NCBI GenBank assembly: GCA_015680905.1
Contig: CM027377.1
Span: 59,417,501 to 59,481,500 of the forward strand
Direction: 5' to 3'
Length of the DNA: 64,000 nucleotides
DNA from: Coptis chinensis
Lineage: Eukaryota; Streptophyta; Magnoliopsida; Ranunculales; Ranunculaceae
Made by a program: the position numbers and the translations under genes. The stretch's first letter is position 1; every line of letters starts with the position of its first letter. The notes under the pieces are model-generated. The model made no database searches. It saw nothing but the letters and a program-made list of their open reading frames with translations, and was not told the origin of the DNA. Of this stretch, positions 15,626 to 61,718 are shown piece by piece.

Positions 15626-16920
15626 TGATAAGCACCCAAAACTGTAATATCAAACCCCATTGAGACATATAAATTTGATTGGTTAATTATGTATTTAATA
15701 ATCATGAAATAAGTATGTTTTCGTACTTTTGTAGGTCTTCGCAGTAAACATGAAAATATTGGTTAAACCTGCGTTAAAGCAAGGGGAACGATGTATATAT
15801 GAATTCTTCCAAATCAGCCATGTGAAGCCCAACAAATCCGCACAGAAGTATCAAACTTCTGAAGCTCCCACCTCTTGAACCAAGACTCCGAATGCGACAA
15901 GTGAGCTGCTCAGATAATCAGGGCGATTAACTCTACGCATAGATGGGAAGTTATAAAATTGCCAAAATACCGAACTGCCACTGCACTGCACATGGACCCA
16001 CTATGCGGGCCTGCAAGATTTGATGAGTTATCATACAAGTCAAGAATAAAGTTAGATGAGATTAGGTGTTAATAGTGAAAAAAGATAGGTGTCACTTTGT
16101 TGTGGATTGTGTGGTTAAGAAGAAAGTAAATGTAGTTTGGTGTTTCACGTGGGAGGAAATGAGATTTCTCTCAAATGGAGAAGAAAACAAAACAAGGGGG
16201 GGACACTCCATTTACTCTCTTGACTTCTTTTCCTTTACCATGTATTATTTTAGTTCCTTAGTCTTAGATTTTATTTTAGTTTTAGTTTTTGGTAGAAAGC
16301 TTGTAATAGTTTTAATGGAGGAAACCTTGTGTTCTTCTAGTTAAAAACAAATCTAAATGCAAGTGAGTTTATATAGATAATTTCTTCTTTTTGTTCTCTC
16401 TCTCTATTTTTACATTCTACACTTGTCATCCTTTATCCCAAGGATCATGAGCTAACCTTCCCTTTGTGGGGAGTTAATAATACTCATGTGAGGGAAAATC
16501 TTTGTTATTTGGTTTAGTAAGTTGTTTAGGAAGAACAACTAGACCTACATCATATCCCAAAATGATAGTTGGTGTAGAGTCTAGTTAGGGATCAAAGTGA
16601 TGAGCTTAGAGATAAATCATTGCTTTGGTTCTACATGCTAGCATGTATGAAGCTTAGAGATGAGTCATATATGTTAGGGATCAAGTTTTCTTTTATTAGG
16701 ACTTGTCTAAGAGTTCTAGGAAGATTAAGATGCACTTACTAAAATCAAATAACAAAAGTTATTTTCACATGAGGAGAATTAACTCTCCATTTTCATTTTA
16801 AGTAAAATTTTATCGTGTCTTAGTTGCATGTTTACGTAACTTAATGTTTTCAATTTTTGTTTTCGCATTTTGGCCAAGGAAGAGATTCAAATCTCTAACA
16901 TATACTAAAGGTGAATATCA
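15626..16920 (+). repeat. 5' LTR of Athila copy 1
   Basis: It starts TGATAAGCACCCAAAACTG and ends GGTGAATATCA. It matches the 38116-39630 LTR over most of its length, though the two differ in length, and it is related to the 48274-49717 LTR. Reading frames within it are not genes. Confidence 0.93.
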
Positions 16921-16923
16921 AAA

Positions 16924-16942
16924 TGGCGCCACTGCCATTCTA
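16924..16942 (+). other. Primer-binding site of Athila copy 1
   Basis: TGGCGCCACTGCC begins three bases after the LTR. Athila and related elements typically carry TGGCGCCGTTGCC-like sites complementary to the 3' end of tRNA-Asp, and this is a slightly changed version. Confidence 0.75.
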
Positions 16943-18655: not shown

Positions 18656-19860
18656 ATGGCCGATGATCCTCCACCAGCTGAGAAGCCCCTGTCGGACTTC
18701 TATATTGCATTACAGGAAGGACCTTCTTCATGCATCAAACTTGAGGACATTTTCGGTGATTTTCGTATCCCACCAAATGTTTTTAGTTTGTTACCTGTGT
18801 ATCATGATTTGGATCATGAAAAACCGTACAATCATCTTCGTAGGCTTCAACAAGTGGCCACAACATTTTACCATCCAGCTATCTCTAAGGAACAACTCTT
18901 GTTTCGGCTATTTCCATTCACTTTAGCAGAAAAAGCGCCAATTTGGCTTGCAGGACAATAGCCACAATCCATAGACACATGGAATAAACTTGTTCAAGCT
19001 TTCATGCTTCAATTTTACACTCAAAAGAAAACTACTAAAATACTTCAGAAAATTCAATTCTTTCGTCAAAATCCTCATGAATCCTTTAAGGAAGCATGGA
19101 GTCACTTTACTGATCTTCTTTTAGAATGTCCTCCTCACCAACTAGACAAAGCCGTCCTTGTTCGTTCCTTCTTTAATGGACTTTCTGATCATCAAAAAGA
19201 AACTCTTGATATAATGAACGGTGGTTGCTTCATGGACAAAGGAGCTACTGAAGCATATACTTTTCTTGAAAAACAAGCGAAAAAAGGTACACACTGGGGT
19301 AACACTGAATCGTCTAGGTCATCAAAGGATACTATTACAAAAGCTACATCTATTTTTGAGGTAAAACCCGATCCTGAATTAAAAAATTTGATAGAATCTT
19401 TAACTAAAAAAGTAGATGCCCTTGCAGTTCAAGTAAATGATCAACTACCAAAACAGGTTATGAACATTGACACCTCCCCATGCGTTCTTTGTCTTAGTTC
19501 TGACCATCCTGATGCATATTGTCCCTTGTTATATGCTTCCTATACTCAACCATCGGAGGAGGCATGTGCATTCAACATTCCTAATGCACCTTGGAGACAA
19601 TATCCGAATTTCGCTTGGCGCCAAAATAACTAACAGCTGGGGGCTCCTCCAGGTTTCGCTAATCCACCAGTTCGACCAACCAACAACTTTATTCTTTACC
19701 ACCAAGGAAATAATCAGCAATACCAACAAAGTCAATCAATTTCAAAATACTTCTGATGCTAACTATCAAACCAACCGTGACAATCAACTTACCTTTTCTC
19801 GATGCCTTAAAGCTATTGCAAAAACATGCAAAATTTCTGAAAGATATGTGCACCACAAAA
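18656..19860 (+). pseudogene. gag of Athila copy 1
   Basis: The start is ATG at 18656 (MADDPPPAEKPLSDF). The capsid-type retrotransposon gag region follows (EKPYNHLRRLQ, then WSHFTDLLLECPPHQLD). A CX2CX4HX4C zinc knuckle reads CVLCLSSDHPDAYC near 19480-19530. This protein would form the particle that packages element RNA. It aligns throughout with gag of copy 3 (53066-54486). The copy is broken. Confidence 0.88.
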
Positions 19861-20388
19861 AAGAGAACTAATGTTCCTCAACAAGCATTCCTCACTAAAC
19901 TGTTTCCATCCATCACCGAACACAATGGTATAGTCAAATACAAGGACCTTGGTAGACCAACGGTTCCATGCACCTTAGGTGACAAATATACGGCTACTGT
20001 GCTACTAGACCTAGGAGCTAGTGTGAACTTACTTCCATATTACTTATTTAAACAACTAGGTCTTCATGAGCTGAAACCTACCACCATGACTCCACAGTTA
20101 GTCGATCGTTCCATTAAGTATCCAAAAGGAATTGTGGAAAACGTCCTTGTAAAAGTCCAAGACTTTTTCTATCCTGTCGACTTTGTTATTTTGGATACAG
20201 AAGTTGCTTGTGATTCCATTCCTATCATCTTAGGACGTCCGTTCCTAGCAACTGCTAATGCTCTTATTAACTGTAGGGATGGTTCCATTACCATGTCCTT
20301 CGGAAATCTTTCGGTCGAGGTAAATGTGTTCAAGATGATGAAACAAATTCCAGAGCCTGACATTGATGGTGAGGTGAACAGGGGTTGA
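19860..20388 (+). pseudogene. Aspartic protease region of Athila copy 1
   Basis: The retropepsin-like active site LLDLGASVNLLP lies near 20002-20037, followed by the ILGRPFLATANA block that closes the fold. It would cut the Gag-Pol polyprotein. The Asp-Leu-Gly-Ala-Ser form of the catalytic triplet is usual for plant Athila elements. It matches copy 3 at 54768-55378. Confidence 0.88.
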
Positions 20389-20584
20389 CAAAGATTAAAG
20401 CAAAGAGTATTTAACAAACACTTTTCCTGAAGATGAAGTATACCAATTTCTTTCCTTTAGCGATTCTAAATTTGAAGACGATGATTATGCACAAGAAGTA
20501 AATGAATTATTAGAGTCAATACCATTATTTAACTCTACAACTGTGATGTCCAGTGATTTGGATTAACATCAATCTGTTTACTCT

Positions 20585-22340
20585 ATGGAAGACGACTTTC
20601 CTCAAGAATCTTTAATACCCACTCCACCCGCCCCTGACTTAAAACCTCTTCTTTTGGAATTAAAATACGTACATCTTGATCCAGATGGTAGTCATCCAAT
20701 TATTATATCATCTCAATTGACTGACGATCAAGAATCTCGTTTAATAGATGTCATTCAACAACACCGTTCTGCTATTAGATGGTCCCTCGATGACATTAAG
20801 GGCATTGACCGTAATGTATGCACCCATCACATACATCATGAAGAAAATGCTAAGATGTCGCGTGAACCGCAGCATCGTCTAAACCCAACCATGAAAGATG
20901 TGGTACGAGAGGAAGTTTTAAGATTACTCGATGCAGGTATTATTTACCCTGTCTCCGATAGTGTTTGGGTGAGTCCAATTACGTTGTTCCAAAGAAACGG
21001 CATTACGGTTGTGCGCAATGATAAAGATGAATGCATCTCCGCTCGTATTCTAATGAAATGGCGAATATGCATTGATTATCGCAAACTTAATGCAGTCACT
21101 CGTAAGGATCACTTTCCACTGCCCTTCATCGATCAAATGCTTGAACGGTTAGTCGGTCATGTGTATTATTGTTTTCTTGATGGTTATTCAGGATATTTTC
21201 AGATAGTCATAGATCCTGCTGATCAAGAAAAGACTACGCTCACCTGTCCTTTTGGTACATTTGCATATAAACGAATGCCTTTCGGCCTTTGCAATGCACC
21301 TGGTACTTTCCAACGTTGCATGCTTCACATTTTCAGTGATATGATTGAACGTTTTATGAAAGTATTCATGGACGATTTCTCAATATATGGAGATTCTTTC
21401 GATAGCTGTCTATCAAATCTTGAAAAGGTCTTTACACGTTGTGAAGAGAAAAACCTTGTTCTTAATTGAAAAAAATGTCATTTCATGGTTAAAAAAGGAA
21501 TAGTTTTAGGACATATTGTTTTAAAAGACGGAATCGAAGTCGACAAAGCTAAGATAGAAAAAATTGCTTCACTTCCTATACCAAAAACAGTTCGCGACAT
21601 TCGCGTCTTTACACATTGTGAAGAGAAAAACCTTGTTCTTAATTGGAAAAAATGTCATTTCATGGTTAAAAAAGGAATAGTTTTAGGACATATTGTTTCA
21701 AAAGATGAAATCGAAGTCGACAAAGCTAAGATAGAAAAAATTGCTTCACTTCCTATACCAAAAACAGTTCGCGACATTCGTGTATTTTTAGGACACGCAG
21801 GTTTCTATAGGAGATTTATTCAAGATTTCTCAAAGATTGCTCGACGTTTGACCAACCTCTTTCTTAAAGATGCCACTTTTGACTTCAGTTTCAATTGCAA
21901 ACTAGCTTTTAAGACTTTAAAATCCGCCTTAACTACCGCTCCCATAATTCAACCACCTGATTAGTCTAAACCTTTTGAATTAATGTGTGACGCGAGTGAC
22001 TATGCTATTGGAGATATACTAGGGCAACGCCGAGAAGATAAGCCAATTGTTATTTACTACGCGAGTAAAACTCTTAATGAAGCTCAACGTAACACCACCA
22101 CTGAGAAAGAGTTTCTCGTCATTGTATATGCCTTGGATAAGTTTCGTCCTTACCTAGTAGGTTCTTCCACAATTGTCTACACTGACCATGCGGCGCTTCA
22201 TTACCTATTAGCGAAAAAAGATGCAAAACAAAGATTGATCCAATGGATTCTCCTTTTGCAAGAGTTTACCCTAGAAATTAGAGATAAAAAAAGTTGCGAA
22301 AATGGGGTTGCAGACCATTTATCAAGACTTGTCAGTGATG
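20585..22340 (+). pseudogene. Reverse transcriptase and RNase H of Athila copy 1
   Basis: RT blocks include WRICIDYRKLNAVTRKDHFP, YCFLDGYSGYFQ, FGLCNAPGTFQRCM and the catalytic FMDDFSIYGDSF near 21367. The connection block FLGHAGFYRRFIQDFSKI follows, then the Ty3-type RNase H starting CDASDYAIG near 21986 and ending ADHLSRL near 22313. Together these copy element RNA into DNA. The wording is closest to the Athila lineage. It is broken like the rest of the copy. Confidence 0.92.
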
Positions 22341-22399
22341 TTGATACTGATACTGAACCTATTTGTGATTCCTTTCCGAATGAACACTATTCCATTTTT

Positions 22400-23700
22400 T
22401 CATCCCCTTGGTACGCTGACATAGTAAATTACTTAGTTACCGAGGAAGTCCCTTCATCTTGGTCTCGTAATGACCGAAAAAAGTTCTTATCCACTGTGAA
22501 ATTTTTTTTCTGGGATGATCCCTACCTCTTCAAGTATTGTTCCGACCAACTAATCCGTCGTTGCATTCCCGACTGGGAACACAATGACGTGTTATCCTTC
22601 TACCATGAACAATCTTGTGGTGGTCATTTTAGTGGTAAGAAAACAGCGGCCAAGGTTCTACAATGTGGATTTTATTGGCCAACACTATTTAGAGATGCAC
22701 ATGAGCATTGCAAAGCATGCAACCGCTGCTAGCAGCTAGGACGCATTACTCAACGCAATATGATGCCCTTAAATCCCATTTTAATTATGGAAATCTTTGA
22801 TGTATGGGGCATCGACTTCATGGGCCCCTTTCCAAATTCTCATGGCTTCCTATACATACTGGTAGCAGTTGACTACGTGTCAAAATGGATTGAGGCATTG
22901 GCATGTCGTGCTAATGATCATAAAACGGTCGTTTTGTTCGTCAAGGAAAATATTTTCTCTCGATTTGGCATTCCAAAAGGTATAATTAGTGATGGGGGAA
23001 ACATTTCTGTAATAAAATTTTTGAATCATTAGTAAAGAAATATGGAGTCACACACAAAGTGGCAAATCTGTATCATCCTCAAACCAGTGGCCAAGTAGAA
23101 GTCTCTAATAGAGAGATCAAATCCATTTTGGAAAAAACTATGAATCCATCTAGAAAAGACTGGTCTCTACGATTATCTGATGCCTTGTGGGCATACCGAA
23201 CAGCTTTTAAGACACCAATAGAGATGTCTCCTTATCGCCTCGTTTTTGGAAAACCTTGTCACCTACCGGTTGAACTTGAGCATCGTACTCTATGGGCCAT
23301 CAAAAGCCTCAATTATAATACTAATGCGGCAGAGGCAAAGAGAAAATTGCAGTTAAATGAGCTTGAGGAAATTCGGAGTGATGCCTATGATCTCTCGAAA
23401 TCTTATAAAGCCAACATGAAAAAAGTGCATGACAAGCACATATTGAGAAAAGATTTCAAAGTTGGTCAAAAAGTTTTGTTGTATAACTCAAGATTATACA
23501 TTTTTCCAGGAAAATTAAAAACTCGATGGTCTGGTCCTTTCATTGTCTCTGCTGTCACCCCTTATGGGGCTATATCTTTAAAAAACGTAAATGATGACAG
23601 CAAATTTCAAGTAAATGGCCAACGTGTTAAACATTATCATGAGTTGCGCTCTCCAGATGTCGAAGAGACTCTTCTCAAAGATCCAGTCTACACAGACTAA
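22400..23700 (+). pseudogene. Integrase of Athila copy 1
   Basis: The HHCC zinc-binding region ([20 protein letters not shown] to CKACNRC, about 22600-22732) is followed by the DDE core ([20 protein letters not shown], then [18 protein letters not shown]) and a C-terminal [11 protein letters not shown] block. It joins the DNA copy to the genome. No chromodomain is seen, as expected for Athila. Confidence 0.9.
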
Positions 23701-24207: not shown

Positions 24208-25143
24208 GGATCTGACGTTAAAAGAATCAACTTGTTTATACTCGTGTCTTTTATTTTCACCTTTGCACTAAGTGTTGTGCACAAAGAGAGACGTGATAGG
24301 CAACATCGGATGGTCCCTCATTCGCATGGGCAATGGATTTCACTAGGCCAACCCCAAATAGTTTTCTATTTGATGACAGTTCAGGGTGGTTTGAGGCTAT
24401 ACCATATGTACTAAGGGTAATATTATTATTAGACCATTGCACATTGGTCATGGATGGTACCGTCCTGAACCCTAGGCCCCCAAAACATAAAGGTTAAGCC
24501 ACAGTCTGGCTGGATTGGGTTCGCCCCAGAGCCGACATGACAGTTGCCTGATATTACAATAATGATTTTCTTCTTGAAGTCCGGTGTTGTTAACACGTTC
24601 ATCTCCCCTTGTACATTTGTATATAAAATTTGTAAAAAAAAAAAATTGAGGGGTTGCGTTCTATTTTTACAAGATTCATCCCCCCCAAATAAAAATAAAA
24701 AGGTTTGAATGTGATTTTGTCATTTTCCAGTGGATGGCATTTTTCATGCTGATCGTTTTGATATGTCATTCGTTCAATTTGGAGTTAAAATGAATCGAAA
24801 TTCTACGTTTGAAATTTCGAACCATTTCAGAACATATGGGTAATTTCCGGTTTTACTATGGGCTTGGGCCAAAAATTGGACCTGACCAAAAATCACGCGA
24901 TCCGTCACAAAAACCCACATGCGGGGGCATCCCAGCGTCGCCCCTCACTTTCTTTTCCCCAAAATCTGGATCTTGGTTCCCCATAGAAATCCTTCCGGCA
25001 AGACGCAGCATCACATCGCGACCCTAAATTTGATCGGTAAGACGCGGACCCTACACCACCAATTCATCCAATTTTTTTACACCAACATCCTCCCCCTCCA
25101 AGACAACCAATATAGGCCCTCAAAAATCCAACTCGATCCCTCT
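24208..25143 (+). other. Noncoding spacer of Athila copy 1 between accessory ORF and late ORF
   Basis: It contains blocks shared with copy 3, such as TACCATATGTACTAAGGGTA and GGTACCGTCCTGAACCCTAGG (copy 3 at about 59283 and 59339). It probably carries transcript signals for the late ORF. No other gene is seen. Confidence 0.6.
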
Positions 25144-26088
25144 ATGGCTGGAAATCGGAGAATCACAGTTGAGAGAAAATTTTCAAATCTCTATAATTCC
25201 GAAATGTTTTATCCATTTTTCGATGGGGAAATTGCTAGTAGAGAGTGGGAATATCTTTTGCATCGAATTCCAGCTCATTATTCCGAAGATTTAGTGTTGA
25301 AGTTCTATAACAATGGAGGTTTTCGGGGGAATGAGTTTTGGATTACGGCGGATGGGTTGGAACGTGAACTCACGTTGGAATTGATTTCGACAATGACGAA
25401 TATTCCAATCAACTCCGATAGTGCGACACTGTTGATTTCGGAGTATCCGAATACAATGGAGTTGATGTTTGACACTCTTCTCGAGGGTGAATACAATGCT
25501 ACCTCGAACTGCGTGTACCAGCACTCGCTCAGACGTAACCAACTAGCCGTTACTCAGTGGCTGGCTTACAACGTCATTGGAACTTCAAAAACATCTTATA
25601 TGAACAAGACATTCTTACACCTGTTGTGGATCCTCCAGGAGAAGAAGGATACCTTCTGTATGGTCCATTTCTTGGGCCATATTCTTACGTCTGCGTCAAC
25701 CAGGTCAGCTCCTCTTACTGTACTTGTTACTCAGCTTATGCTTAACTTAGGGTTCCAGTTCGCTAGTCCTTTAACTCCAACAAGGTCTTTTGAAAATTTT
25801 GTGATTTTTGAGACTTGTGTCATGGATCACTGGGACCCTATAGCGAGAGATGATATCGAGCGTAATAACGTACCTCCTCCTCCTCCTTCACCACCCAACT
25901 GTTTTAATGAGGATATCATGCGCCGAATCAGCACTAGCATGCATAGGATGTTTCTTCGTCAGGAAGAGATGCTTACTTCCCAAAATGACTTCCAGCAAGA
26001 AATGCGTAATCGCAAAGGCCATTTCCAGAGAATGATGATGGCAAATCAGCAGCAATTCCAAGATCAACTGCTACGCAAGCATCTGTAA
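25144..26088 (+). CDS. Late ORF, putative plant transposon protein domain, Athila copy 1
   Basis: A long open frame starts at ATG 25144 (MAGNRRITVERKFSNLYN), chosen because the copy 3 homologue starts with similar wording at 60640. It has YPFFDGEIASREWEYLL, YSEDLVLKFYNNGG and a hydrophobic mid part, then a Pro run (PPPPPSPP) and a Met/Gln-rich coiled-coil C-terminus. This matches the plant-only domain often found downstream of pol in Athila-like elements, in the place where an envelope-like gene would be. Its function is not established. It appears open throughout, unlike gag and pol here. Confidence 0.7.
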   Translation: MAGNRRITVERKFSNLYNSEMFYPFFDGEIASREWEYLLHRIPAHYSEDLVLKFYNNGGFRGNEFWITADGLERELTLELISTMTNIPINSDSATLLISEYPNTMELMFDTLLEGEYNATSNCVYQHSLRRNQLAVTQWLAYNVIGTSKTSYMNKTFLHLLWILQEKKDTFCMVHFLGHILTSASTRSAPLTVLVTQLMLNLGFQFASPLTPTRSFENFVIFETCVMDHWDPIARDDIERNNVPPPPPSPPNCFNEDIMRRISTSMHRMFLRQEEMLTSQNDFQQEMRNRKGHFQRMMMANQQQFQDQLLRKHL

Positions 26089-26715: not shown

Positions 26716-28797
26716 ATGAAAACTTGGTTTCGTGATTCACCTCATAAATGTTTAATCAGAAGAGCTAATTCTTGTAACAATCTTCCAATTCTGGTTTTGG
26801 AGGAGACCACACCATCGAACTCAGGATCTGATTCTGAATCTAAAACACACACACCACTAGTAGACTTAGAAGATACACCAGAGAGAGTACCATTAGCCGC
26901 CATGGCTGATCAAAGAACTCTTAGCACCTTGTTTCAACCTATCGCGGTTCAACCACCGAACTGCATAGTGATGCCCGACAATAACAATAACTATGAGATT
27001 AATCCCACCATTCTTAATATGTTGCCAAGATATTATGGCAAAATAAATGAAGAACCGTATAATCATCTGAGTAAGTTCTTGAGCATATTAAGTACTTTTA
27101 AAGCACCTCGTCTTTCCCCTGAAGAGACTAGATTAAGGTTGTTCCCATTGACTTTTGAGGATGCCACACTACGTTGGTATAGATCCCTACCCTCTAATTA
27201 TATAACTACTTGGGAGCAACTATCACAAAAGTTTATGAAACAATATTACCCTTTACGTAAGACTGAAGCCATGCAATTGGCTATTTCAACCTTCAAAGGA
27301 AAACCTAATGAAGAGTTTCATACAACATGGGATAGATTTAATGATTTACTTGTCTGTTGTCCACATCATGGTTTTGACATACTTAATATTGTACATTACT
27401 TTAGAAAAGGTCTTTCACCTATGAACTGTCAGTTAATTGAATCAATGAATGGAGGAAGATTTACTAGTCTTACTCCTGATGAAGCCTACATTTTTTTGCA
27501 AAACTTTTCTGAGAGTTCTAAGGATTGGGCCAATAGTAGTGACCATGAGGACATGTCACGGGTAGATAGGGGGATGAGTTTTAATAAACCAGGTATGTAT
27601 GAGGTTAGAAACGATAATGATCAAGAATTAAAAGCTAGACTAGTTAGTTTAACTACAGGAATCGAAAACTTAAACAAGAAATTTGATTCATTCACTTTAA
27701 ACCCTCCAAGGAATAATCAACCTCAACAAGCAATGAGTGTCAATCAATTTTGTGAAAATTGCCTTACTACAGATCATGACACCTCAGTTTGCTCTATGTA
27801 TGTTGCTCAAGGTATTAATGATGTTTGTGCTTTTAATACATTCAAAAGACAGGGTTATCAAAATAATTTTAATAACAACAACAATTATAACCCAGATCTT
27901 AGAAATAACTCAAACAATTCATGGGGACAAAATATGTCTCCACAGCAAAACCAATATGGTTTTCAAGGTAATCAAGGGATTAATAGGCAACAATACATAA
28001 ATAGAGGCGCAGTAGTACCTTCTCCTCAATATCAAAATCAACAACAACAAACAAACATGAACAGAGAATTAGCTATTGATCCTATGGCTAATCACCAAAC
28101 CCAACCCAACACCATAGATGAAACCATGAAAGCTTTAGCCACCGAAACCGAGAATGAATTCAAAAGAATTGACCAAAAATTCGATGTTATGACTCAACAG
28201 ATGAGCCAACAATTCAATCAGATACTAGCTAGTTTAGCCGAGAGACCCAAAGGAAGCTTACCAGGCCAACCTGAACAAAATCCAAAAGGTAAAAATGTTT
28301 ATCAAGTTGAAACCACCCCTTCATCCGCATCCACAGAGGGAGTTAACTCGATATCTACCTTTAGGTCAGGAAAGAAAGTAGATAACAAAGTCGACATACC
28401 TGATTCTGATGAAGTTGTTATAACAAAAGATAAGGAAAAGCCAGTTGAAACTAAAAAAACCAAAGAGCAAGTAACCGAAAAAATTCCACCCGCACCATTC
28501 CCCTCTAGGTTAAAAGATAACAAAAAGGAAGCACAATATAATGAGATCATGAATATTTTTAAAAATCTACATATCAATATTATTTTTCTAAGTGCAATTA
28601 AACAAATGTTTTCCTATGCCAAATTCATAAAAGACCTAGTAAAAAAGAAAACAAATATCCTAAAAGAAGTTTTCCTTGCACAAGGTTGTTCATCCTTTCT
28701 ACAGAACCAAGCCGTAGTAAAACATAAGGACCACAGTAGTCCTACAGTTATGTGTAGAATAGAGAGGACTACACTGATCAAGCATTATTGGATTTAG
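26716..28797 (+). CDS. gag of Athila copy 2
   Basis: An unusually long open frame of 693 codons. The likely gag start is the internal ATG at 26902 (MADQRTLSTLF), which sits in GCCGCCATGG, an ideal initiation context; the first 62 codons may be an upstream extension. The capsid region reads EEPYNHLSKFL, WEQLSQKFMKQYYP and FNDLLVCCPHHGFD. A CX2CX4HX4C knuckle reads CENCLTTDHDTSVC. It is followed by an Asn/Gln-rich stretch and the pre-protease PPAPFPSRL block. It remains open although the rest of the element is decayed. Confidence 0.85.
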   Translation: MKTWFRDSPHKCLIRRANSCNNLPILVLEETTPSNSGSDSESKTHTPLVDLEDTPERVPLAAMADQRTLSTLFQPIAVQPPNCIVMPDNNNNYEINPTILNMLPRYYGKINEEPYNHLSKFLSILSTFKAPRLSPEETRLRLFPLTFEDATLRWYRSLPSNYITTWEQLSQKFMKQYYPLRKTEAMQLAISTFKGKPNEEFHTTWDRFNDLLVCCPHHGFDILNIVHYFRKGLSPMNCQLIESMNGGRFTSLTPDEAYIFLQNFSESSKDWANSSDHEDMSRVDRGMSFNKPGMYEVRNDNDQELKARLVSLTTGIENLNKKFDSFTLNPPRNNQPQQAMSVNQFCENCLTTDHDTSVCSMYVAQGINDVCAFNTFKRQGYQNNFNNNNNYNPDLRNNSNNSWGQNMSPQQNQYGFQGNQGINRQQYINRGAVVPSPQYQNQQQQTNMNRELAIDPMANHQTQPNTIDETMKALATETENEFKRIDQKFDVMTQQMSQQFNQILASLAERPKGSLPGQPEQNPKGKNVYQVETTPSSASTEGVNSISTFRSGKKVDNKVDIPDSDEVVITKDKEKPVETKKTKEQVTEKIPPAPFPSRLKDNKKEAQYNEIMNIFKNLHINIIFLSAIKQMFSYAKFIKDLVKKKTNILKEVFLAQGCSSFLQNQAVVKHKDHSSPTVMCRIERTTLIKHYWI

Positions 28798-31996: not shown

Positions 31997-32497
31997 GCGG
32001 AAAGAATAGAACTTAAAGAAGGACAGATTCCCAGGCAGATTTTACACTGTCCACCTGGATTTTGGGAGCCTAGTTTATTGACAGATGAGGGTGAACCAGT
32101 TTTTGGTATGACACCAGCTCATCACGACCCTGATTCCCCACCTCCTTATTTTGAAAACACTAGTGTCTTTGATGCTCAAATGGATCTGAATGTGTGAGAC
32201 ATGGGTTTAACATTATTTAGGGGTATGCACAAATTGTATAATTATCAGAAAAACAAGGAGGAGATGAGTATTCAGCGACATAAGGTGTTGATGGAACATA
32301 TTCTTATGCTCCAGAATAACAAAGCTGAAACATTTGTTCAAAAGAGAGGTCGTCCAAAATCGAAATAGAGTCCTTTATCTAGGATTATGTATTCCAGTAC
32401 TTCTTCATATGATCACTCATGTACTTGATTGTCTATTATGGTTTTATCACTTTTATTTGTAGGTAGAGACAAATCTTGTATTCCGTGCAACAATGAA

Positions 32498-32559
<62 letters not shown>

Positions 32560-33649
32560 TTGTTTAAATTTTTATTTTTATTTTTCAGTCATGGCATTTG
32601 TACATGTGACTCTTACATTCCACTCTAGTACCTTTTCTCTGTCTTTTTAGAGACGTATAACTCTAGGGATTTAGCACATGACAAATATTTAGTCGTTGTA
32701 GTAATTATTGATCCTTATAAATCACCACTCTTATTTGTTTTGTTAAGGATATAAATTCTACAGATTTTAGCTGATGTAATTTTGCACGCATTTAAGGTAA
32801 TATCCCTCCTTCTCTGATTATTTCAATTATGGTAAGCTTTCAGTTATTTTATTTAGTCATTGAGGACAATGCCTAATTTAGTTAGGGGGGTGAGAATTAA
32901 AATTTTGCAATATTTTAATTACAATATTTGGAAAGTTTATATGTGAATCATGGTGATTATAGGTGAAAAGTATATTTTTATCGTTTAAACTGGCTAATGA
33001 AATTGGAAATTATAAGTCATGACCAGGATTAGTAAGACTTTTAGACTAAGTTTCTATTACTAGAAATAGATCTAACTGATAAAAGTCTTAGTCTAGAGTA
33101 AGTTCATATAATACACCACTAGAGGAATTTCAAATGAAAAAGCAGCTTAAACTTCTACCAAACTAGAAGATTAGTACAGAGACTTGACCTGTGAGACTTG
33201 AGCCTTTCAATTTTAATTTCTTGGAGAGTCTTTATGTAAATCTGAGTCCAAGTTGACTCAACCATTTTTCTGTGCTTAAATTCGTTGTGTAGTCTCATTC
33301 ATTCTTGATTTGGTCAATCACGAGGTAGCATCAACTGGGGAGATAGCTATTAGGTCTTGTAGTCTATTCAAAGCGGAATATCATACTGATAAGTCAAGTA
33401 GTGAACCAATCAGCCTTTATCCCACCTAGTAGGATTATCATGTTAACCACTTTTGAGCCTTATATATTAAACCTTTTATTCTTAAATCAATCATCTCAAA
33501 CCCAACTCCAGATAAGGAGTATATCTCATATTATTAGCCTTATCCATATTTCTGAGGATTTCTAAAGAACTAAAGAGAAAGCTAGAACGAAGAAGATTTT
33601 GAAGGAAATTTTACCAAAGTCAAATGAAGAAAATCATTCCTTTTGCTAA

Positions 33650-33684
<35 letters not shown>

Positions 33685-34380
33685 GAAAAAAAAAAGAAAT
33701 ATAAATAATTGAGCAAAAGTAGTGATAGAGTTCAAGTGTTGCAGTTTACAAGTGAAGAAAATTTCCAAGAAGGTCAAAAGCACAAAGTCTTTAGTATATT
33801 CTCAGAAATTTTTGAATCATTTTTACACTTTTCTTGTTAATCTGTCCTAAGCCCTGTTTTAATACCCAGACTTATCACTAAAGTATGATATGAAGTTTAG
33901 AATAGGTGAGAGGATGCTAAAGTGAAGGACCCGACACTTCAAATGTGATTGACATTCTTTCCATGAGACTTTATTTATATATTTGCAAATTTCCGTCTTT
34001 CTGACTAAATATGTGGGATGTTCTACTTTTTACTCATTTCCCTGCATATGGAGGTAAAATAGAAAACTTATCTGAGAGATATTTCCTTGTGAGTGTATGA
34101 AATGGTGAGATTTGAAGTCAAAATACTAATCCAAAGGTGAGGTAGAAATTCCGTTGCTTGGAAAAGAGAAATGAATCAAAATGGTTAAAAATGAATAAGC
34201 TCTAGTTAGGATGATTAGTCAGTCTTTTCTATCTTTATGAATAGAACCTTAGCCTAATGTTTTATGATCATGGGTATGATAAGTAATAACCTTTTGATTT
34301 AGACATTTTAACTGAAAAAGTTGTTTTCTCTAGATTTCACCATAGTTCATATGTAAAATTGATTTTTTGTGGGTATATCA
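31997..34380 (+). other. 3' noncoding region of Athila copy 2
   Basis: No gene is seen. It contains an (ATT)n run at 32498-32557 and an (AAT)n run at 33648-33677. A TTGAGGACAATGCC...GTTAGGGGGGTG block near 32860 resembles an internal polypurine tract. Confidence 0.65.
32498..32557. repeat. (ATT)n microsatellite
   Basis: About 20 ATT units. Confidence 0.95.
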
Positions 34381-34396
34381 ATCTAAAAAACCCTCA

Positions 34397-34466
34397 CGAG
34401 GTTATAACTCGGCCCTTTAAGGGTAACTTAAAGGTTTAAAGCCTTGTTGCATATGGTAAATGCAAC
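34397..34466 (+). other. Three-hairpin 3' RNA motif, Athila copy 2
   Basis: Stem 1: CGAG 34397-34400 with CTCG 34408-34411. Stem 2: CCTTTAAG 34414-34421 with CTTAAAGG 34427-34434, five-base loop. Stem 3: GTTGCAT 34446-34452 with ATGCAAC 34460-34466, seven-base loop. The same layout recurs in copy 1 at 37938-38006 with compensating changes in stem 2. It lies about 105 bases before the polypurine tract, so it would be in the 3' part of the element RNA. Confidence 0.8.
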
Positions 34467-34556
34467 CACGATGCCTGCGAAAGTAAGTTAGTTTATTATT
34501 TAATTAGTATTGTTAGCTTTGAACACTTCTCTAGTATACCACATATTTGCTAAGAG

Positions 34557-34582
34557 ACTAGCAAAATGCTAGTTGGGGGTTA
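34557..34582 (+). other. Hairpin and polypurine tract before LTR of Athila copy 2
   Basis: ACTAGCA-AAA-TGCTAGT forms a 7-bp stem. It is followed directly by TGGGGGTTA, the tract that primes plus-strand DNA, and then the LTR start TGATAAGTGC. Confidence 0.8.
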
Positions 34583-36110: not shown

Positions 36111-36342
36111 GTGCCCACCAAACAAAATCATTCGCTCATTAAGGTTTAGGCAATGGAAACATCTCGCTCGGTACCTGAGGCATGTTCGTTGTTACCCGAA
36201 GGATGAAAATATGAAGAAACATTTGAACAAATCCGGAGACAAAGAATGGGCAGAAATTTGGCAGACTATTATCTTTTGGCGCGATGCAAAGGAAATGCAT
36301 TTCCTTATTGAGGATGTCATACCTACACATTATGTTGGATGG
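36111..36342 (+). pseudogene. Unidentified coding-like segment
   Basis: An open plus-strand frame reads RQWKHLARYLRHVRCYPKDE, then KEWAEIWQTIIFWRDAKEMH and ends VGWTAA. Composition is protein-like (Trp, charged residues) but no family is recognised. It lies directly right of the copy 2 LTR, so it may be part of copy 1's late region or another captured fragment. Confidence 0.35.
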
Positions 36343-37937
36343 TAAATTTGAGCTTGTCATTGTACATATATCTAGCTAAAAATTATGTTTCATGTGTTAT
36401 TGTCTTTCATTATTTCGTGTGCTATGTTTCATGTGCTATTATACATTTCATTGTTCCTTTCTGTATAATATATTATGTTCTCCAACCTTTCTGTTCCAGC
36501 AATCTAGCCCTAATTTTGCTCACGGTTCTCAGGTAATTTCTCTCTTTATTTATTGATACTTCGAGGACTAAGCATCATTCTGTTTGGGTTCGAGGACTAA
36601 GCATCATTCTGTTTGGGGGTGCTTTTAACCTGTAGCAAAAATTAGGCAAATTGTAGCATTTATATAGTTTTTATTTTCTTGTTAATAATTGTACTTAGTG
36701 ACAAAGTCTTGTTTCCTTTTCAATGATGAAAATTGTCTAGAAATCTCACATTAGTATCTGAATTAGGATTCGTTTTTAAAAAACTTGAGATAATACGTAT
36801 GCAATAGTTTATACATCTTTTCATGAACATTCATGTACTGAGTATTATCGAGTGCACATAGTAGTAAGTTTCTGGAACCAACAATTAGTTACTTAAACGA
36901 TCAATCCTGTGAGAATCTAACCAAAAAGCCTCGATATGTGTGATATATGAGTAATGACATAGAGGAGTAGTTTTTCCGATTAGAGAAAATCACGCGTCTA
37001 CTTACTTGATCACCACCCGAACCCTAGGCAAGAATTTAGGCCTTTTTTGGATCGACATAGCTAAAAAAATTCTTACCTGTTACAAATTTCACCGCTAGCC
37101 ACTCCACTGAACCTTTCATCAAACCTTTCACTTTCACCAAAAATTCATTACCCATCTACTAAACCAAATAAAAGAACCTACCTAAGTGATGAGTATGAGA
37201 AATAGGATGAAATGTGGAAAAATAAAGAGAAAGACTTGTCCCAAATAAAAGTCAGTCACTTGCTTCAGGAAAGAAAAATAGAATCATGTTCTTAAGTTAT
37301 AACAAAAAAAAAAAAATCATCAGTATCCAGAGGCTTAAGAACAAAGTTGGAAAACTCAATTAGAAGAAGGAAAGAAAACAAAGATTTCTCTAGTATAAAT
37401 ATCTTGAAGACCTTATTCCCTCATACTCGTAAATTTTGATTATCCATTTTCATTTTCTTCTACATCATCACCTAAGCCCCCATAATACCTAATAAAGACT
37501 TCTAGCTTATTTAGGAGTAGGAAAGTGTGATAATAAGTAGTAGACGTGATTGATCGACCTCGGCTCCTCTAACTGTCATTGAGATGTGAGGAAACGTGTG
37601 CCCACTGCACACTGGAGTTAACGAAACCTGAGTGAAAATTTTTTGAGTGAATTTGTGTTTCGACACAGCCCTGTGAGAACCCATTTAGGTACGCTCTCCG
37701 AAAGATCTAGAAACGACCCTGCTAGTACATTTCAATGAAAAGTTCACTGCATGTATGATCATATGTAGATGTTTTAATTATTGAATACATATTAACTTGA
37801 GTTTCAAAGAAATCAATCCTCGTTCCCTGCTAAGGAGATGTATGGATATCTGAGATTAATTTAGGAAACGAGTTTTTTGTCACTATGTCGTTGTAGTTTA
37901 AATGAAGTTTGTGAGTATCTTCTCTGGAAAACTCTCA
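36343..37937 (+). other. 3' noncoding region of Athila copy 1
   Basis: No gene is seen. A 29-base unit ending in GTTTGGG is repeated in tandem at 36560-36588 and 36589-36617, looking like a duplicated internal polypurine tract. Confidence 0.6.
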
Positions 37938-38006
37938 CGAGGCTATAACTCGTCCACTAGGGAATTCCTAGTGGTTTAAGGCCTTGTTGCATATGGTCAA
38001 TGCAAC
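37938..38006 (+). other. Three-hairpin 3' RNA motif, Athila copy 1
   Basis: Stem 1: CGAG 37938-37941 with CTCG 37949-37952. Stem 2: CCACTAGG 37954-37961 with CCTAGTGG 37967-37974, five-base loop. Stem 3: GTTGCAT 37986-37992 with ATGCAAC 38000-38006. Stem lengths, loop lengths and the 11-base linker between stems 2 and 3 equal those of copy 2. Confidence 0.82.
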
Positions 38007-38080
38007 TGCACTCTGCGAAACGAGAATTAGTTAGGACTACACATTTTTTGCCACTTATCTATTTTAATGTCTCTTCTTTG

Positions 38081-38115
38081 CTTGAGGACAAGCAAAGTGC
38101 TGTTTGGGGGTAGTA
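38081..38115 (+). other. Polypurine tract before 3' LTR of Athila copy 1
   Basis: GAGGACAAGCAAAGTGCTGT, then TTGGGGGTAGTA, directly before TGATAAGC. A bulged stem (AGCA with TGCT) precedes the G run as in copy 2. Confidence 0.8.
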
Positions 38116-39630
38116 TGATAAGCACCCAAAACTGTAATATTAAACCCCATTGAGACATATAAATTTGGTTAATTATGTGTTTAATAATCATGAAATAAGT
38201 ATGTTTTCGTACTTTTGCATGTCTTCGCAGTAAAGATGAAAGTATTGGTTAAACCTGCGTTAAAACACGGGGAATGATATATATATGAATTCTTCCAAAT
38301 CAGCCATGTGAAGCCCAACAAATCCGCACAGAAGTATCAAACTTCTGAAGCTCCCACCTCTTGAACCAGGACTCCGAATGTGACGAGTGAGCTGCTCAGA
38401 CAATCAGGGCTATGAACTCTACACATAGATGGAAAGTTGTAAAATTACCAAAAGACCGAACTGCCACTGGACTGCACGTAGACCCACTATGTGAGCCCAC
38501 AAGATTTGATAAGTCGTCATACAAGTCAAGACAAAGTTGCAAATAATTGGTGCAAAAATGACACCTTGCATGTAGTTAATAAAGTTAGATGAGATTAGGT
38601 GTTAATAGTGAAAAAATATAGGTGTCACTTTGTTGTGGATTGTGTAGTTAAGAAGGAAGTAAATGTAGTTTGGTATTTCACGTGGGAGGAAATGAGATTT
38701 CTCTCAAATGGAGAAGAAAACAAAATAAGGGGGGGGTGGGGGGGACACTCCATTTACTCCCTTGACTTCTTTTCCTTTACAATGTATTATTTTAGTTCCT
38801 TAGTCTTAGATTTTATTTTAGTTTTAGTTTTTGGTAGAAAGCTTGTAATAGTTTTAATGGAGGAAACCTTGTGTTCTTCTAGTTAAAAACAAATCTAAAT
38901 GAAAGTGAGTTTATATAGATAGTTTCTTTTTTTTGTTCTCTCTCTCTATTTTTACATTATACACTTGTCATCCTTTATCCCAAGGATCATGAGCTAACCT
39001 TCCCTTTATGGGGAGTTAATAATACTCATGTGAGGGAAAATCTTTGTTATTTGGTTTAGTAAGTTGTTTAGGAAGAACAACTAGACCTACATCCTATCCC
39101 AAAATGATAGTTGGTGTAGAGTCTAGTTAGGGATCAAAGTGATGAGCTTAGAGATAAGTCATTGCTTTGGTTCTACATGCTAGCATGTATGAACCTTAGA
39201 GATGAGTCATATATGTTAGGGATCAAGTTTTCTTTTATTAGGACTTGTCTAAGAGTTCTAGGAAGATTAAGATGTAATTACTAAAATCAAATAACAAAAG
39301 TTATTTTCACATGATGAGAATTAACTCTCCATTTTCGTTTTAAGTAAAATTTTATCGTGTCTTAGATGCATGTTTACGTAACTTAATGTTTTCAATTTTT
39401 GTGTAGTAAAGAAACCAAGTATTTAGTATTTACACAATCATAGCTAAACTTACTCACTAGTTTCCTAAAAGAGTAAAACCAAGTTGTAAGTGGTCCTAGA
39501 ATTTAGATTGGTTCAAATCCCTACTCCAAATTATATGAACATGAAGATCGTGAGTAAGGAAATACTTTGTTTTCGCATTTTGGTCAAGGAAGACATTCAA
39601 ATCTCTAACATATGCTAAAGGTGAATATCA
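38116..39630 (+). repeat. 3' LTR of Athila copy 1
   Basis: TGATAAGCACCC...GTGAATATCA, about 1.5 kb, matching the 15626-16920 LTR and followed by TCTAC (39631-39635), the right-hand target duplication. Confidence 0.93.
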
Positions 39631-47191: not shown

Positions 47192-48273
47192 TTACAGAGA
47201 GTTGGTTTGATTTTGAATACTAAATCGTATGTATGTACTTTCTAAAGGTCGCCAGTAAATTGTATTACCTGTTGGCAAGTTGTTGAAAACTTCCTGAAAG
47301 ACTATGTTCTGTGTGTGGCCATAGGGTTCACCGTCTTTACGCGTTACCAGAATCTTCAATCCTTCCCGTGAGTTTGTTCGCGAGACAGCAACATACAATT
47401 GTCCATGGCTAAAAACAGGCTTTGGAAGGTAGAGTCCGACATGTTTCAAGGTCTGGCCTTGGCTTTTGTTAATAGTCATTGCGAAGCAAATTTTTATCGG
47501 GAATTGTAGTCATTTTAAAACGAATGGCCATTTCGTTTGATTGGATGACGTGACAATACGGTTTATTGAGACTTCTTGTCCTATGTTTCTCCTGGTTAAA
47601 ATCTCTGCCCTGATAATTCTATCGATAAATTCTGTCACTATTAGCCTTGTCCTATTGCAAAGACGTAATCTAGGATTGATGTTTCGTAGGAGCATAATCG
47701 GAACGCCTTTTTTTAACTCAAGGGCATGGTTTGGCATCCCAGACAGTTGCAGTGTGGTAAGGTATTCCGTGGGGAACAAAATGTCTTGGTTTCTTATTTT
47801 CCCATTGACTGGGCAAATTGAGTCCGCACTTAGATATTTCTTTGACTCTCCTGGTAGAGTTGAAAGAATGAACACATTCACTTCTTCTACGCAATCATTT
47901 GTTGGTGCCAAAATACACATGTCCTTTAGGTACTTCTGTTCGCTGTAGTTTTGCAAGATATCAAGATAAGTGCTTGTCACAATTTGCTTTATTGGATCAT
48001 CCCCTTCTGGTATTAGGAACTCGTCTAAAATTTTTATCCAGTTTGCATCTTCCCATTCATTGATTGCTATGATCGACAATTTGCCTTCTCCCACATCTAG
48101 AACCCATTGGATGAACTGTGATATTGACTCGGCCTTTGTTGGATCAAGGTCTTTCTTTTGGAGGCGCATATTTGTTATCAGCACAAATGCCCGACAATAA
48201 TCCCACAGATAAGATTTGTTTAGTGAAGCAGCCACCACCTGTTCCCTTGTTGATCTCTCAATGACGGGGAGTG
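47192..48273 (-). pseudogene. Helitron helicase (Pif1-like), C-terminal half
   Basis: The minus-strand frame reads AASLNKSYLWDYCRAFVLIT, MRLQKKDL, CILAPTNDCVEEVN, LKKGVPIMLLRNINPRLRLC, then MTINKSQGQTLKHVGLYLP and LYVAVSRTNSREGLKIL. These are the late motifs of the Pif1-type helicase of plant Helitrons, which unwinds DNA during rolling-circle transposition. An in-frame TGA at 47510-47512 stands where Arg is usual (FVLK-stop-LQFPIK), probably a CGA to TGA change. The N-terminal half and Rep domain are cut off by the LTR element beginning at 48274 and would lie right of the window. Confidence 0.9.
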
Positions 48274-49717
48274 TGATAAGCACCCAAAAGTGTATTATGA
48301 AACCCCGTTGAGACATATAAATTTGGTTAACTATGTGTTTAATAATCATGAAATAAATATGTTTTCATACTTTTGCAGGTATTCGCAGTAAACATGGAAA
48401 TATGGTTTAAACCTGCAATAAAGCACGAGGAACGACATGTATATGAATTCTTCCAAATCCGCACAGAAGCATCAAACTTCCGAAGCTCCTACCTCTTGAA
48501 CCAGGACTCTGAATGCAACAAGTGAGCTGCTCATACAATCAGGGCGATGAACTCTACGCATAGGCGGGAAGTTGTAAAATTGCCCAAAGACCGGACCGCC
48601 ACTGGACTGCAGATAAGACCCACTATACGGGCCCGCAAGATTGGATGAGTCATCAATCATAGAGCATGTCAAGACAAAAATGACAAATTATTGGTGCAAA
48701 GTTGACACCTTGCATGTAATTAATTAGATTAGGTGTTAATAGTGAAAAAAAGGCAAGGTGTCACTTTGTTTTAATGTGGTGGATAAAAATGGAGTAAATG
48801 TGGTTTGATGTTTCACATGGGAGGAAATGAGATGTCTCTCAAATGAAGAAGAAAAAAAAAACAAGGGGACACTCCATTTACTCCCTTGACTTATTTTCCC
48901 TACCTTGTATTATTTTAGTTCCTTAGTCATTCATATTATTTAGTTTTTTGTTTGGTAAGAAAGCTTGTAATAGTTTTAATGGAGGAAACCTTGGTTTTCT
49001 TCTAGGAAATAAATAAAAAGCAAGTGAGTTTAGTTAGTTTTTCTTCTTCTTCTTTCTCTCTCTTTTGTTCTTCTAGCTTGTAATTCATCATCCCAAGGAT
49101 CATGAGCTAACTTCTCTTTTGGGGAGTTAATCCATCTCATGTGAGGGAGAATATTTGTGGTTGGCTTGGTAGGTTGTTAGGAAGAACAACTAGACCTGCA
49201 TCCTATCCCAAAATGATAGTTGGTGTAGTGTCTAGTTAGGAATCAAAGTAATGAGTTTAGAGATAAGTCATTGCTTGGTTCCACTTGCTAGCATGTATGA
49301 ACTCTTTAATGAGCCATACATGTTAGGGATCAAGTTTTCTTCCATTAGGGCTTGTCTATGAGTCTAGGAAGAATCAAATGAACCTGTTCAAATCAACAAC
49401 TAAATGTTATTTTTACATGAGGAGGATTAGCTCTCCACCTTTTCTTTAGTAAATTGAATTTTGTATTAATTGCATGATTTCAAATCTTAATGTTTTTTCT
49501 TTAATGTTTGTATAGGAAAGAAACCTAGCAGTAGTAGTAAACTTACTCACTAGTTCCCTAAGAGTAACAACCAATTTGTAATTGTCCTAGACTTTAGGTT
49601 GGTTCGAATCCTTATTCCAACTTTACGAAACGAAGATCATGAGTAAGGAACTTTGAGTTCGCTTTCGCATCAAATTAGAGAGTTAAATCTCTAAATACAT
49701 AGAAAAAGCTAATATCA
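48274..49717 (+). repeat. 5' LTR of Athila copy 3
   Basis: It starts TGATAAGCACCCAAAAGTG, ends GCTAATATCA, and is related throughout to both LTRs of copy 1. Confidence 0.92.
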
Positions 49718-60205: not shown

Positions 60206-60639
60206 AAATAAATAAACAAACCATAACAAAGAAAGGCCATCCAAAACTCACCAAAATAATGGATACACATGGTGTTCAGAGAAAATCGCGCACGCTACAA
60301 GGTACGCATAACACTTGTCACACATGCAGCTCGATTATTCTATCCATATTCTATTACTGAGTTATGATCATCATTTCTGAAATTACGTGTAAGTCTAACT
60401 ACCCTATAAAACTTTCCTCTGTATTTTCTAACATTGAACCATCTCATTAATTGTATTTGGATATCTGACATGACATGACTTACTGTGGATCCCCTTTGAT
60501 GTTGTTCATAATCACATGGGTCATTAACTACACTTGGAATCCATATGGGTACAGACTCATAAATTGGCTATAAATCTCTTCTTTTTTAGCCATTCTTATT
60601 CAAACAATTTTCACTATCCTTCCTTCAGTAATACTATCA

Positions 60640-61718
60640 ATGGATCAACCAAGAAAAATAACGGTAGAGAAAGACTACCTGAAAACTTTCAAAGATGGCC
60701 GGTTTTCTCCTTATTTTGACACTGAAATCATACGTCGCGGATGGACGCCTCTTCTATATCATTCAGCAGCTGGTTATTCCCGAGAATTGGTTTTGATGTT
60801 CTACCAATTTAGCGGATCTGAAAATGGAAAATTCTACTTCAATGCCTATGGACAACGTTTGGAATTAACTAAGGAAATGATCTCCGACATACTTCAAATC
60901 CATTGAATACCTGGGGTCCCTTTTTTCAAGAGTCATCATTTGATTCCGCCAAAACTTTACTACGAGCTACCGTGATCTCATGACGAAGTCGGAAATACAC
61001 ATCACATGGTTCTTCAACGCTCTTTGAAATAGAATCAACGTGTTGTGCTCCACTGGTTGGGACACAATGTGGTAGGTACATCACACCAATCAGAAGTCAC
61101 AAAGCCTCAACTTCACCTACTTTGGATTTTGCAGACTCAAAGAGATGACTTTTGTCTAATCCAACACCTCTGAAACGTAATCACAAAGAAAACAAGAAGG
61201 TCAGCACCCCTACCCACTTTAGTAACGCAGATTATGATGCGTTGGGGTTATCCAGTAATTTCTCCAGAGACACTCCTTCAAAGAGCACAAATAAAAGTAC
61301 TCAAAACAGATTACTCCGTTGGTTTTGGACTCCCCGACTACGATAGAGGAACGAGCGACCCAAGCTCAAAATTGACCATTTATTTGATGAGAATGCCATC
61401 TTTGAACATTATTAATCCCATGGAAGGCATTAAACTTCTTCATCGGGGTTTGAGGGAACTACACATTTCGTCGAGAATATCATCATCACAACTCTTCGGG
61501 ATTTCCAAGATCGTCAAGCAATGCATGATGTTGAGCGGGGAGGAGATCTTGGAAAATCATTCTCAGCCCTTGCAAAATCCGCTCTCCTAATGGAAAATCA
61601 AAGCGTACTCTCTCTTGCCCGAAAGGGGACATTCGGATGCAACTTCGGCCAACAAATGGAAGAACTAAATAGTCTGGTGCACGATATGCGTCTCCAAGAT
61701 CAACATAACAATCCATAA
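60640..61718 (+). pseudogene. Late ORF (plant transposon protein domain), Athila copy 3, first
   Basis: The start MDQPRKITVEKDYLKTF aligns with copy 1's late ORF start (MAGNRRITVERKFSNLY). It continues with FSPYFDTEIIRRGWTPLLYH and YSRELVLMFYQFSG. Later fragments to about 61718 keep the direction, with a Met/Gln-rich end. It is broken. Confidence 0.65.

Follow-up and report, generated by a model that had tools for sequence, protein, structure and literature searches.

A conserved block with three predicted hairpins near the 3′ ends of divergent Athila-type retrotransposons, a candidate cis-acting RNA element

The 64,000-nucleotide stretch of Coptis chinensis DNA that we analysed (the window) contains Athila-type LTR retrotransposons, one of which lies inside another. 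The outer one, element A, is read on the + strand and is bounded by a 5′ LTR at 15626-16920, whose first four bases were inferred from the alignment, and a 3′ LTR at 38116-39630, which starts TGATAAGCACCC; the two LTRs are 91% identical. Three bases after the 5′ LTR lies the primer-binding site (PBS) TGGCGCCACTGCC (16924-16936, + strand), which we take to be of the tRNA-Asp type. A frame at 18962-19630 encodes a Retrotrans_gag domain and is followed, in order, by protease, reverse transcriptase, RNase H and integrase zinc-binding domains, with the pol pieces (protease, reverse transcriptase, RNase H and integrase) at 19714-23700 (+ strand). After pol, a + strand frame of 400 amino acids (24886-26088) occupies an env-like position; it had no Pfam match at E values up to 0.05, and it is 38% identical over 221 amino acids to positions 60637-61272. 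The polypurine tract (PPT) of element A, TTTGGGGG, lies at 38103-38110 (+ strand). Features of the Athila lineage are thus present in element A, namely the gag and pol order between an LTR pair, a PBS of the tRNA-Asp type, and the extra frame before the 3′ LTR. We also noted a second, partly duplicated PPT-like site, CGAGGACTAAGCATCATTCTGTTTGGGGG, at 36540-36625 (36612) of the window; the motif described below lies about 1.3 kb further downstream. Element A resembles Athila and Calypso in its PBS type, in the extra frame after pol and in the extra PPT-like site. One extra PPT is described for Athila4 and Calypso in the relevant passages of PMC2829016.

Element B is nested within element A. Its Retrotrans_gag-encoding gag gene lies at 26716-28797 (+ strand), and its product finds its best match in Cornus florida (43% identical over 90% of the element B Gag). 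The element B PPT, TTGGGGG, is located at 34573-34579 (+ strand) and is followed by the 3′ LTR from 34583; no 5′ LTR of element B was found within the window. Between gag and the 3′ end, element B carries an inverted repeat of about 61 bases (32497-32566 and 33647-33710), whose arms are 84% complementary and 1.1 kb apart. A third Athila-type element begins with a 5′ LTR at 48278-49694 (+ strand), and its 3′ end falls outside the window (L114:1359), where its 3′ LTR matches the 5′ LTR with 97% identity. A frame for a Pif1-type helicase lies on the - strand at 47510-48349, and its first 72 bases overlap this 5′ LTR. Its position next to the LTR start at 48278 suggests that the third element was inserted in Helitron-like sequence.

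Near the 3′ ends of both element A and element B, we located the same series of three inverted repeats, all on the + strand. In copy 1, which belongs to element A, stem 1 spans 37938-37952 and pairs CGAG (37938-37941) with CTCG (37949-37952), the pattern match to the stem-1 core extending over 37934-37952; stem 2 spans 37954-37974 and pairs CCACTAGG (37954-37961) with CCTAGTGG (37967-37974) around the loop GAATT; and stem 3 spans 37986-38006 and pairs GTTGCAT (37986-37992) with ATGCAAC (38000-38006). Copy 2, which closes element B, has the same stem 1 at 34397-34411 (CGAG, 34397-34400; CTCG, 34408-34411), a stem 2 at 34414-34434 that pairs CCTTTAAG (34414-34421) with CTTAAAGG (34427-34434) around the loop GGTAA, and the same stem 3 at 34446-34466 (GTTGCAT, 34446-34452; ATGCAAC, 34460-34466). 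When checked on the sequence, all six arms of each copy were where the original prediction had placed them, and its loop sizes of 7, 5 and 7 bases, its 11-base gap between stems 2 and 3 and its distance of about 100 bases from stem 3 to the downstream PPT were also correct. Stem 2 differs between the copies at pairs 3, 4 and 7, and all three changes are compensated, as had been claimed. The cores of stem 1 and stem 3 each matched twice in the window, compared with means of 0.01 and 0.00, respectively, in shuffled sequence. Conserved bases are also found in the unpaired parts, with TATAA in loop 1, TTTAARGCCTT in the linker and ATGGTNA in loop 3. Since the genes of both elements and both motif copies are on the + strand, the hairpins would be present in the sense RNA. 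There the motif follows the last frame and precedes the 3′ LTR, as would be expected of a transport element of the CTE, RTE or MTE type.

The assignment of the two copies to different Athila-type families was upheld by their LTRs, which differ, and by their proteins: Gag is 31.8% identical over 324 amino acids, and the protease is 57.6% identical over 132 amino acids. When the element A region 36200-38130 was compared with the rest of the window, its sole match was to element B at 34366-34466 (E = 3e-15, with 78% identity over 102 columns). With element B as the query, the match extends past the PPT into the first bases of the LTR, with 69% identity over 261 columns. In three global alignments of the two families, identity per 40 bases was 65-87% within the block and mostly 30-60% outside it. 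A block of about 100 bases that includes the three hairpins is therefore strongly conserved across two very different families. Preservation of the whole block in spite of such divergence in Gag argues that it is functional and that it is read by something other than Gag.

A fourth inverted repeat adjoins the PPT. In copy 1, it spans 38077-38096 (+ strand) and reads TTTGCTTG-AGGA-CAAGCAAA, just upstream of the PPT, and in copy 2 it spans 34546-34565 (+ strand) and reads TTTGCTA-AGAGAC-TAGCAAA. Between the families one of its pairs is changed on both sides, from T-A in family A to A-T in family B. Among the 75 family A and five family B copies listed, family B is predicted to form an overlapping hairpin in its place.

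To see how widespread the motif is, we searched a single plant genome, that of the host (935.6 Mb). Allowing up to two mismatches, the stem-1 core gave 16,901 matches (8475 + 8426), compared with 73 (35 + 38) for a reversed-pattern control, while a stricter pattern, bounded by the 3′ arm of stem 1 and the 5′ arm of stem 3, gave 6,423 matches and its control none. The third element of the window, which was recognised by its LTR and pol, likewise carries the motif at its 3′ end, starting about 184 bases before the 3′ LTR. So that copies would not be selected by the motif itself, we then sampled PPT/LTR junctions. Of the first 34 distinct junctions in the list for contig C1, 32 have the motif, a proportion that applies to families with a TGATAAG-type LTR, as the junction pattern requires. 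This count combines 14 junctions matched by eye to listed motif places, at distances of 108-168 bases, with 18 of 20 that were fetched. At the two junctions lacking the motif, L094 and L111, the LTR is preceded by unrelated DNA, as is expected of a 5′ or solo LTR. All 18 fetched junctions with the motif are family-A-like, and when G-U pairs and small shifts were allowed, all 18 had a complete stem 2, 16 a complete stem 1 and 13 a complete stem 3. Family B occurs in two forms. The B1 stem-2 arms recur in three further copies (L115, L116 and L117), in which pairs 3-8 were set by the search pattern, and with one mismatch in two others (L118 and L125), but among the first 100 listed places of the stricter pattern the B2 form outnumbers B1 by 13 to 1.

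The compensated changes in stem 2 had been described as difficult to account for unless structure is under selection, and we examined this view with a larger alignment of 10 hand-picked rows, four of them from family B. Under the three-hairpin model, 96.3% of cells are paired, compared with 29.5-42.6% when the arms are slid, and both this value and the covariation score exceed those of all 500 column shuffles. Other measures do not exceed the shuffles: the number of double-changed pairs, three, was reached by 271 of the 500 shuffles, and the five further pair types fall below the shuffles, all 500 of which reach five. The double changes are in stem 2, where all four family B rows have them at pairs 3 and 4 and two rows have one at pair 7, whereas stems 1 and 3 have no double change between the families. 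In a simulation that held the number of changes fixed, the B1 stem 2, with three compensated and no broken pairs, had a chance of 0.0007, and in a simulation of the same type the B2 stem 2, with two compensated and two broken pairs, had a chance of 0.047. The compensation in stem 2 thus stands, but it is confined to this stem and to the one split between families A and B, so the evidence that the fold, rather than the sequence, matters for the motif is only partial.

We next considered variation within the families, using 57 family A and 11 family B copies, a set that leaves out 34 copies selected for broken arms. Every position of stem 3 is paired in 51-57 of the 57 family A copies and in 10-11 of the 11 family B copies. 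Pair 1 of stem 3 is G-C in 18 of the 68 copies, G-U in 40, A-U in eight and unpaired in two, with no A-C. In the family B copies, pair 6 of stem 2 is T-T in 10 of 11 and pair 7 is T-T in nine, which is the B2 form. The invariance of stem 1 in copies L009-L058 results from their retrieval by an exact stem-1 match. Among 23 copies in which both outer 5′ bases of stem 1 are changed, none has both pairs restored and three have one restored, as expected under decay after insertion. Eleven copies have both outer 3′ G's of stem 2 changed, a set that is uninformative on single changes, which do occur; one of these copies (C4:101529795) has a double-changed pair beside a broken one. Neither the 23 copies with changed stem-1 arms nor the 11 with changed outer stem-2 3′ G's yielded a new lineage, and no match to two patterns of the motif, to two of the PPT hairpin or to a reverse transcriptase query was found in viral_contigs. 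With no third lineage found that has its own stem sequences, the covariation rests on a single split.

This pattern of change bears on two readings in which the fold in RNA is not under selection. In one, template switching of reverse transcriptase within inverted repeats would have equalised the arms of stem 2, the sequence being conserved for other reasons. All double changes between the families being in stem 2 and at one split is in keeping with it, as are the mostly uncompensated variants within families and the multiplication of B2 despite two broken pairs. Conversion of arms would by itself leave the order, spacing, loops and linkers of three repeats unexplained, although this objection is weak, since conservation of sequence suffices for stems 1 and 3; we consider the reading doubtful. 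In the other, the block would act as DNA or during reverse transcription, either as a palindromic protein site or in connection with plus-strand priming near the PPT. The similarly short distance to the downstream PPT in both families, the extra hairpin directly 5′ of the PPT and the conservation of the linkers would all fit such a role. A palindromic DNA site, however, accords poorly with the mismatched stem-2 arms of B2 and with the predominance of G-U at pair 1 of stem 3, which breaks the DNA palindrome at its edge, and we regard this second reading as rather improbable.

Predicted stability differs between the families. Copy 1 folds better than all 200 of its shuffles (z = -3.2), while the fold of copy 2 is unremarkable (z = -1.3, with 17 of 200 shuffles at least as good). 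For the isolated stem-2 hairpin, the energies are -12.9 kcal/mol in family A, -9.0 in B1 and -4.4 in B2. In longer sequence context, the mean pair probability of stem 2 is 1.00 in the five family A copies folded, copy 1 among them, and with flanks it is 0.19-0.23 in copy 2 and 0.00-0.01 in two B2 copies. A competing rod-like fold, which lacks stem 1 and pairs ACGAGGYU with RGCCUUGU so as to enclose stem 2, is preferred by the minimum free energy structure of copy 1 and by RNAalifold on the 10 rows. On these rows, the rod pairs 95.4% of cells, comparable to the three hairpins, and among nine copies energy favours the three hairpins in five and the rod in four (three hairpins versus rod: -24.9 versus -27.0 in copy 1, -21.4 versus -20.0 in copy 2 and -14.3 versus -22.3 in L095). 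We rejected the rod as the main model, as widely held changes break its pair 6 in nine of 11 family B copies and its pair 2 in eight of 51 family A copies, a comparison that is unequal for stem 1 in that most copies were selected by an exact match to it. The three hairpins are therefore kept as the main predicted model, with the rod as a possible alternative state.

We searched databases and the literature for known counterparts of the motif. Rfam 15 returned nothing at the motif in the window at E values up to 1, and only sub-threshold matches at E values up to 10; with no match above a curated score, a ribozyme or other known RNA was rejected. A duplex with plant tRNA-Asp was also rejected, 98 and 61 of 300 shuffles being at least as good, as was a duplex with the 5′ region of element A itself, for which 17 of 20 shuffles were at least as good. 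The original prediction had known of no description of the motif, and in agreement with this no paper was found with any of five motif strings, a result that does not by itself establish absence from print. Among the matches listed for literature on Athila or on transport elements, titles and opening parts of abstracts held no description of the motif, and by title those listed for the PPT-hairpin strings look unrelated. Passages of PMC2829016, PMC1142308 and PMC7264820 mention no hairpin element in the 3′ linker of Athila and Calypso. The Sireviruses, which are Ty1/copia elements and thus belong to a different superfamily, resemble the motif-bearing elements in having a conserved non-coding motif and an inverted repeat near the PPT, at the 3′ end of a plant LTR element, according to the passages of PMC2829016 on this region. 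The Sirevirus repeat has its first arm next to the PPT and its second within the 3′ LTR, whereas stems 1-3 are short local hairpins at least about 100 bases upstream of the PPT, and the fourth hairpin, like them, has both arms upstream of it.

Parallels in kind also come from animals. The CTE has a 3′ position. The RTE of mouse IAP, the MTE of musD and the retroviral CTE are structured cis elements that export the full-length transcripts of LTR elements, as set out in part of PMC12786077. The Athila motif, with its predicted fold, would be of the same kind, a cis-acting structure carried in the sense transcript of an LTR retrotransposon. It differs in matching no Rfam family above threshold and, with respect to musD, in being described here as local hairpins, the musD element using pseudoknot and kissing-loop motifs in the portion of PMC12786077 that describes it.

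A second parallel is provided by Ty3, and it bears on the reading that the block serves packaging or dimerisation, with hairpins that join two genomic RNAs or bind nucleocapsid, chiefly through the self-complementary GAAUUC tip of the family A stem 2. Stem 2 of family A, together with its loop, is a near-perfect palindrome, and passages of PMC11381356 report that Ty3 RNA dimerises by a short palindrome at a hairpin tip and that the minimal Ty3 element includes part of the 3′ UTR. The Ty3 dimer site, however, is located 5′, whereas the motif is 3′, and neither B1 (GGTAA) nor B2 (GGGAA) has a palindromic tip; retention of the block at 32% Gag identity also speaks against a Gag-specific signal. 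We consider a packaging or dimerisation element unlikely.

The reading we prefer, with a probability of a little under 0.4, is that the motif would act in cis in the 3′-terminal part of Athila-type genomic RNA, be read by a host factor and serve export foremost, a proposal built on sequence comparison and analogy. According to this model, Athila-type Ty3 elements carry the block, transcribed in the gag-pol sense, in the non-coding 3′ part of their genomic RNA, where the three short hairpins and the fourth at the PPT would display the conserved bases of the loops and linker. A host RNA-binding factor would then read the block, more probably than the element's own Gag, because the block is nearly unchanged while Gag shares only a third of its residues, and this binding would promote the fate of the full-length unspliced RNA, above all its nuclear export. 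What we infer is action of the motif as RNA, formation of the hairpins in the cell and a role in export, the last from the position and strand of the motif, from its conservation across Gag types and from the animal precedents in the part of PMC12786077 cited above. A broader formulation, in which families of Athila-type retrotransposons with divergent Gag have in common an RNA element for transport or packaging that is served by a conserved host reader, seems to us rather doubtful as a whole. If true, it would be, as far as our searches show, the first transport or packaging element located in a plant LTR retrotransposon. Being 100 bases long, present thousands of times and naturally variable, with B2 as one example, the motif would provide a defined RNA suited to reporter tests.

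Two minor observations concern sequence variants of the block. Odd variants recur at the same few sites in several copies (L106, L107, L109, L029, L042, L043 and positions 34410-34416 of the window) and add CG, with CTCGTCC read as CTCGGCCC and CTCAGCGAAAC as CTCAAATAAAC; they may be base-calling errors of the assembly linked to methylation, as opposed to evolved differences, and they blur counts of variants. In addition, the linker reads GGTTCAAGGCC or GGTTCAAAGCC in one A1 group (L010, L013, L029, L031 and L032), which recalls a tRNA B-box, presumably by chance, as most copies have GGTTTAAGGCC.
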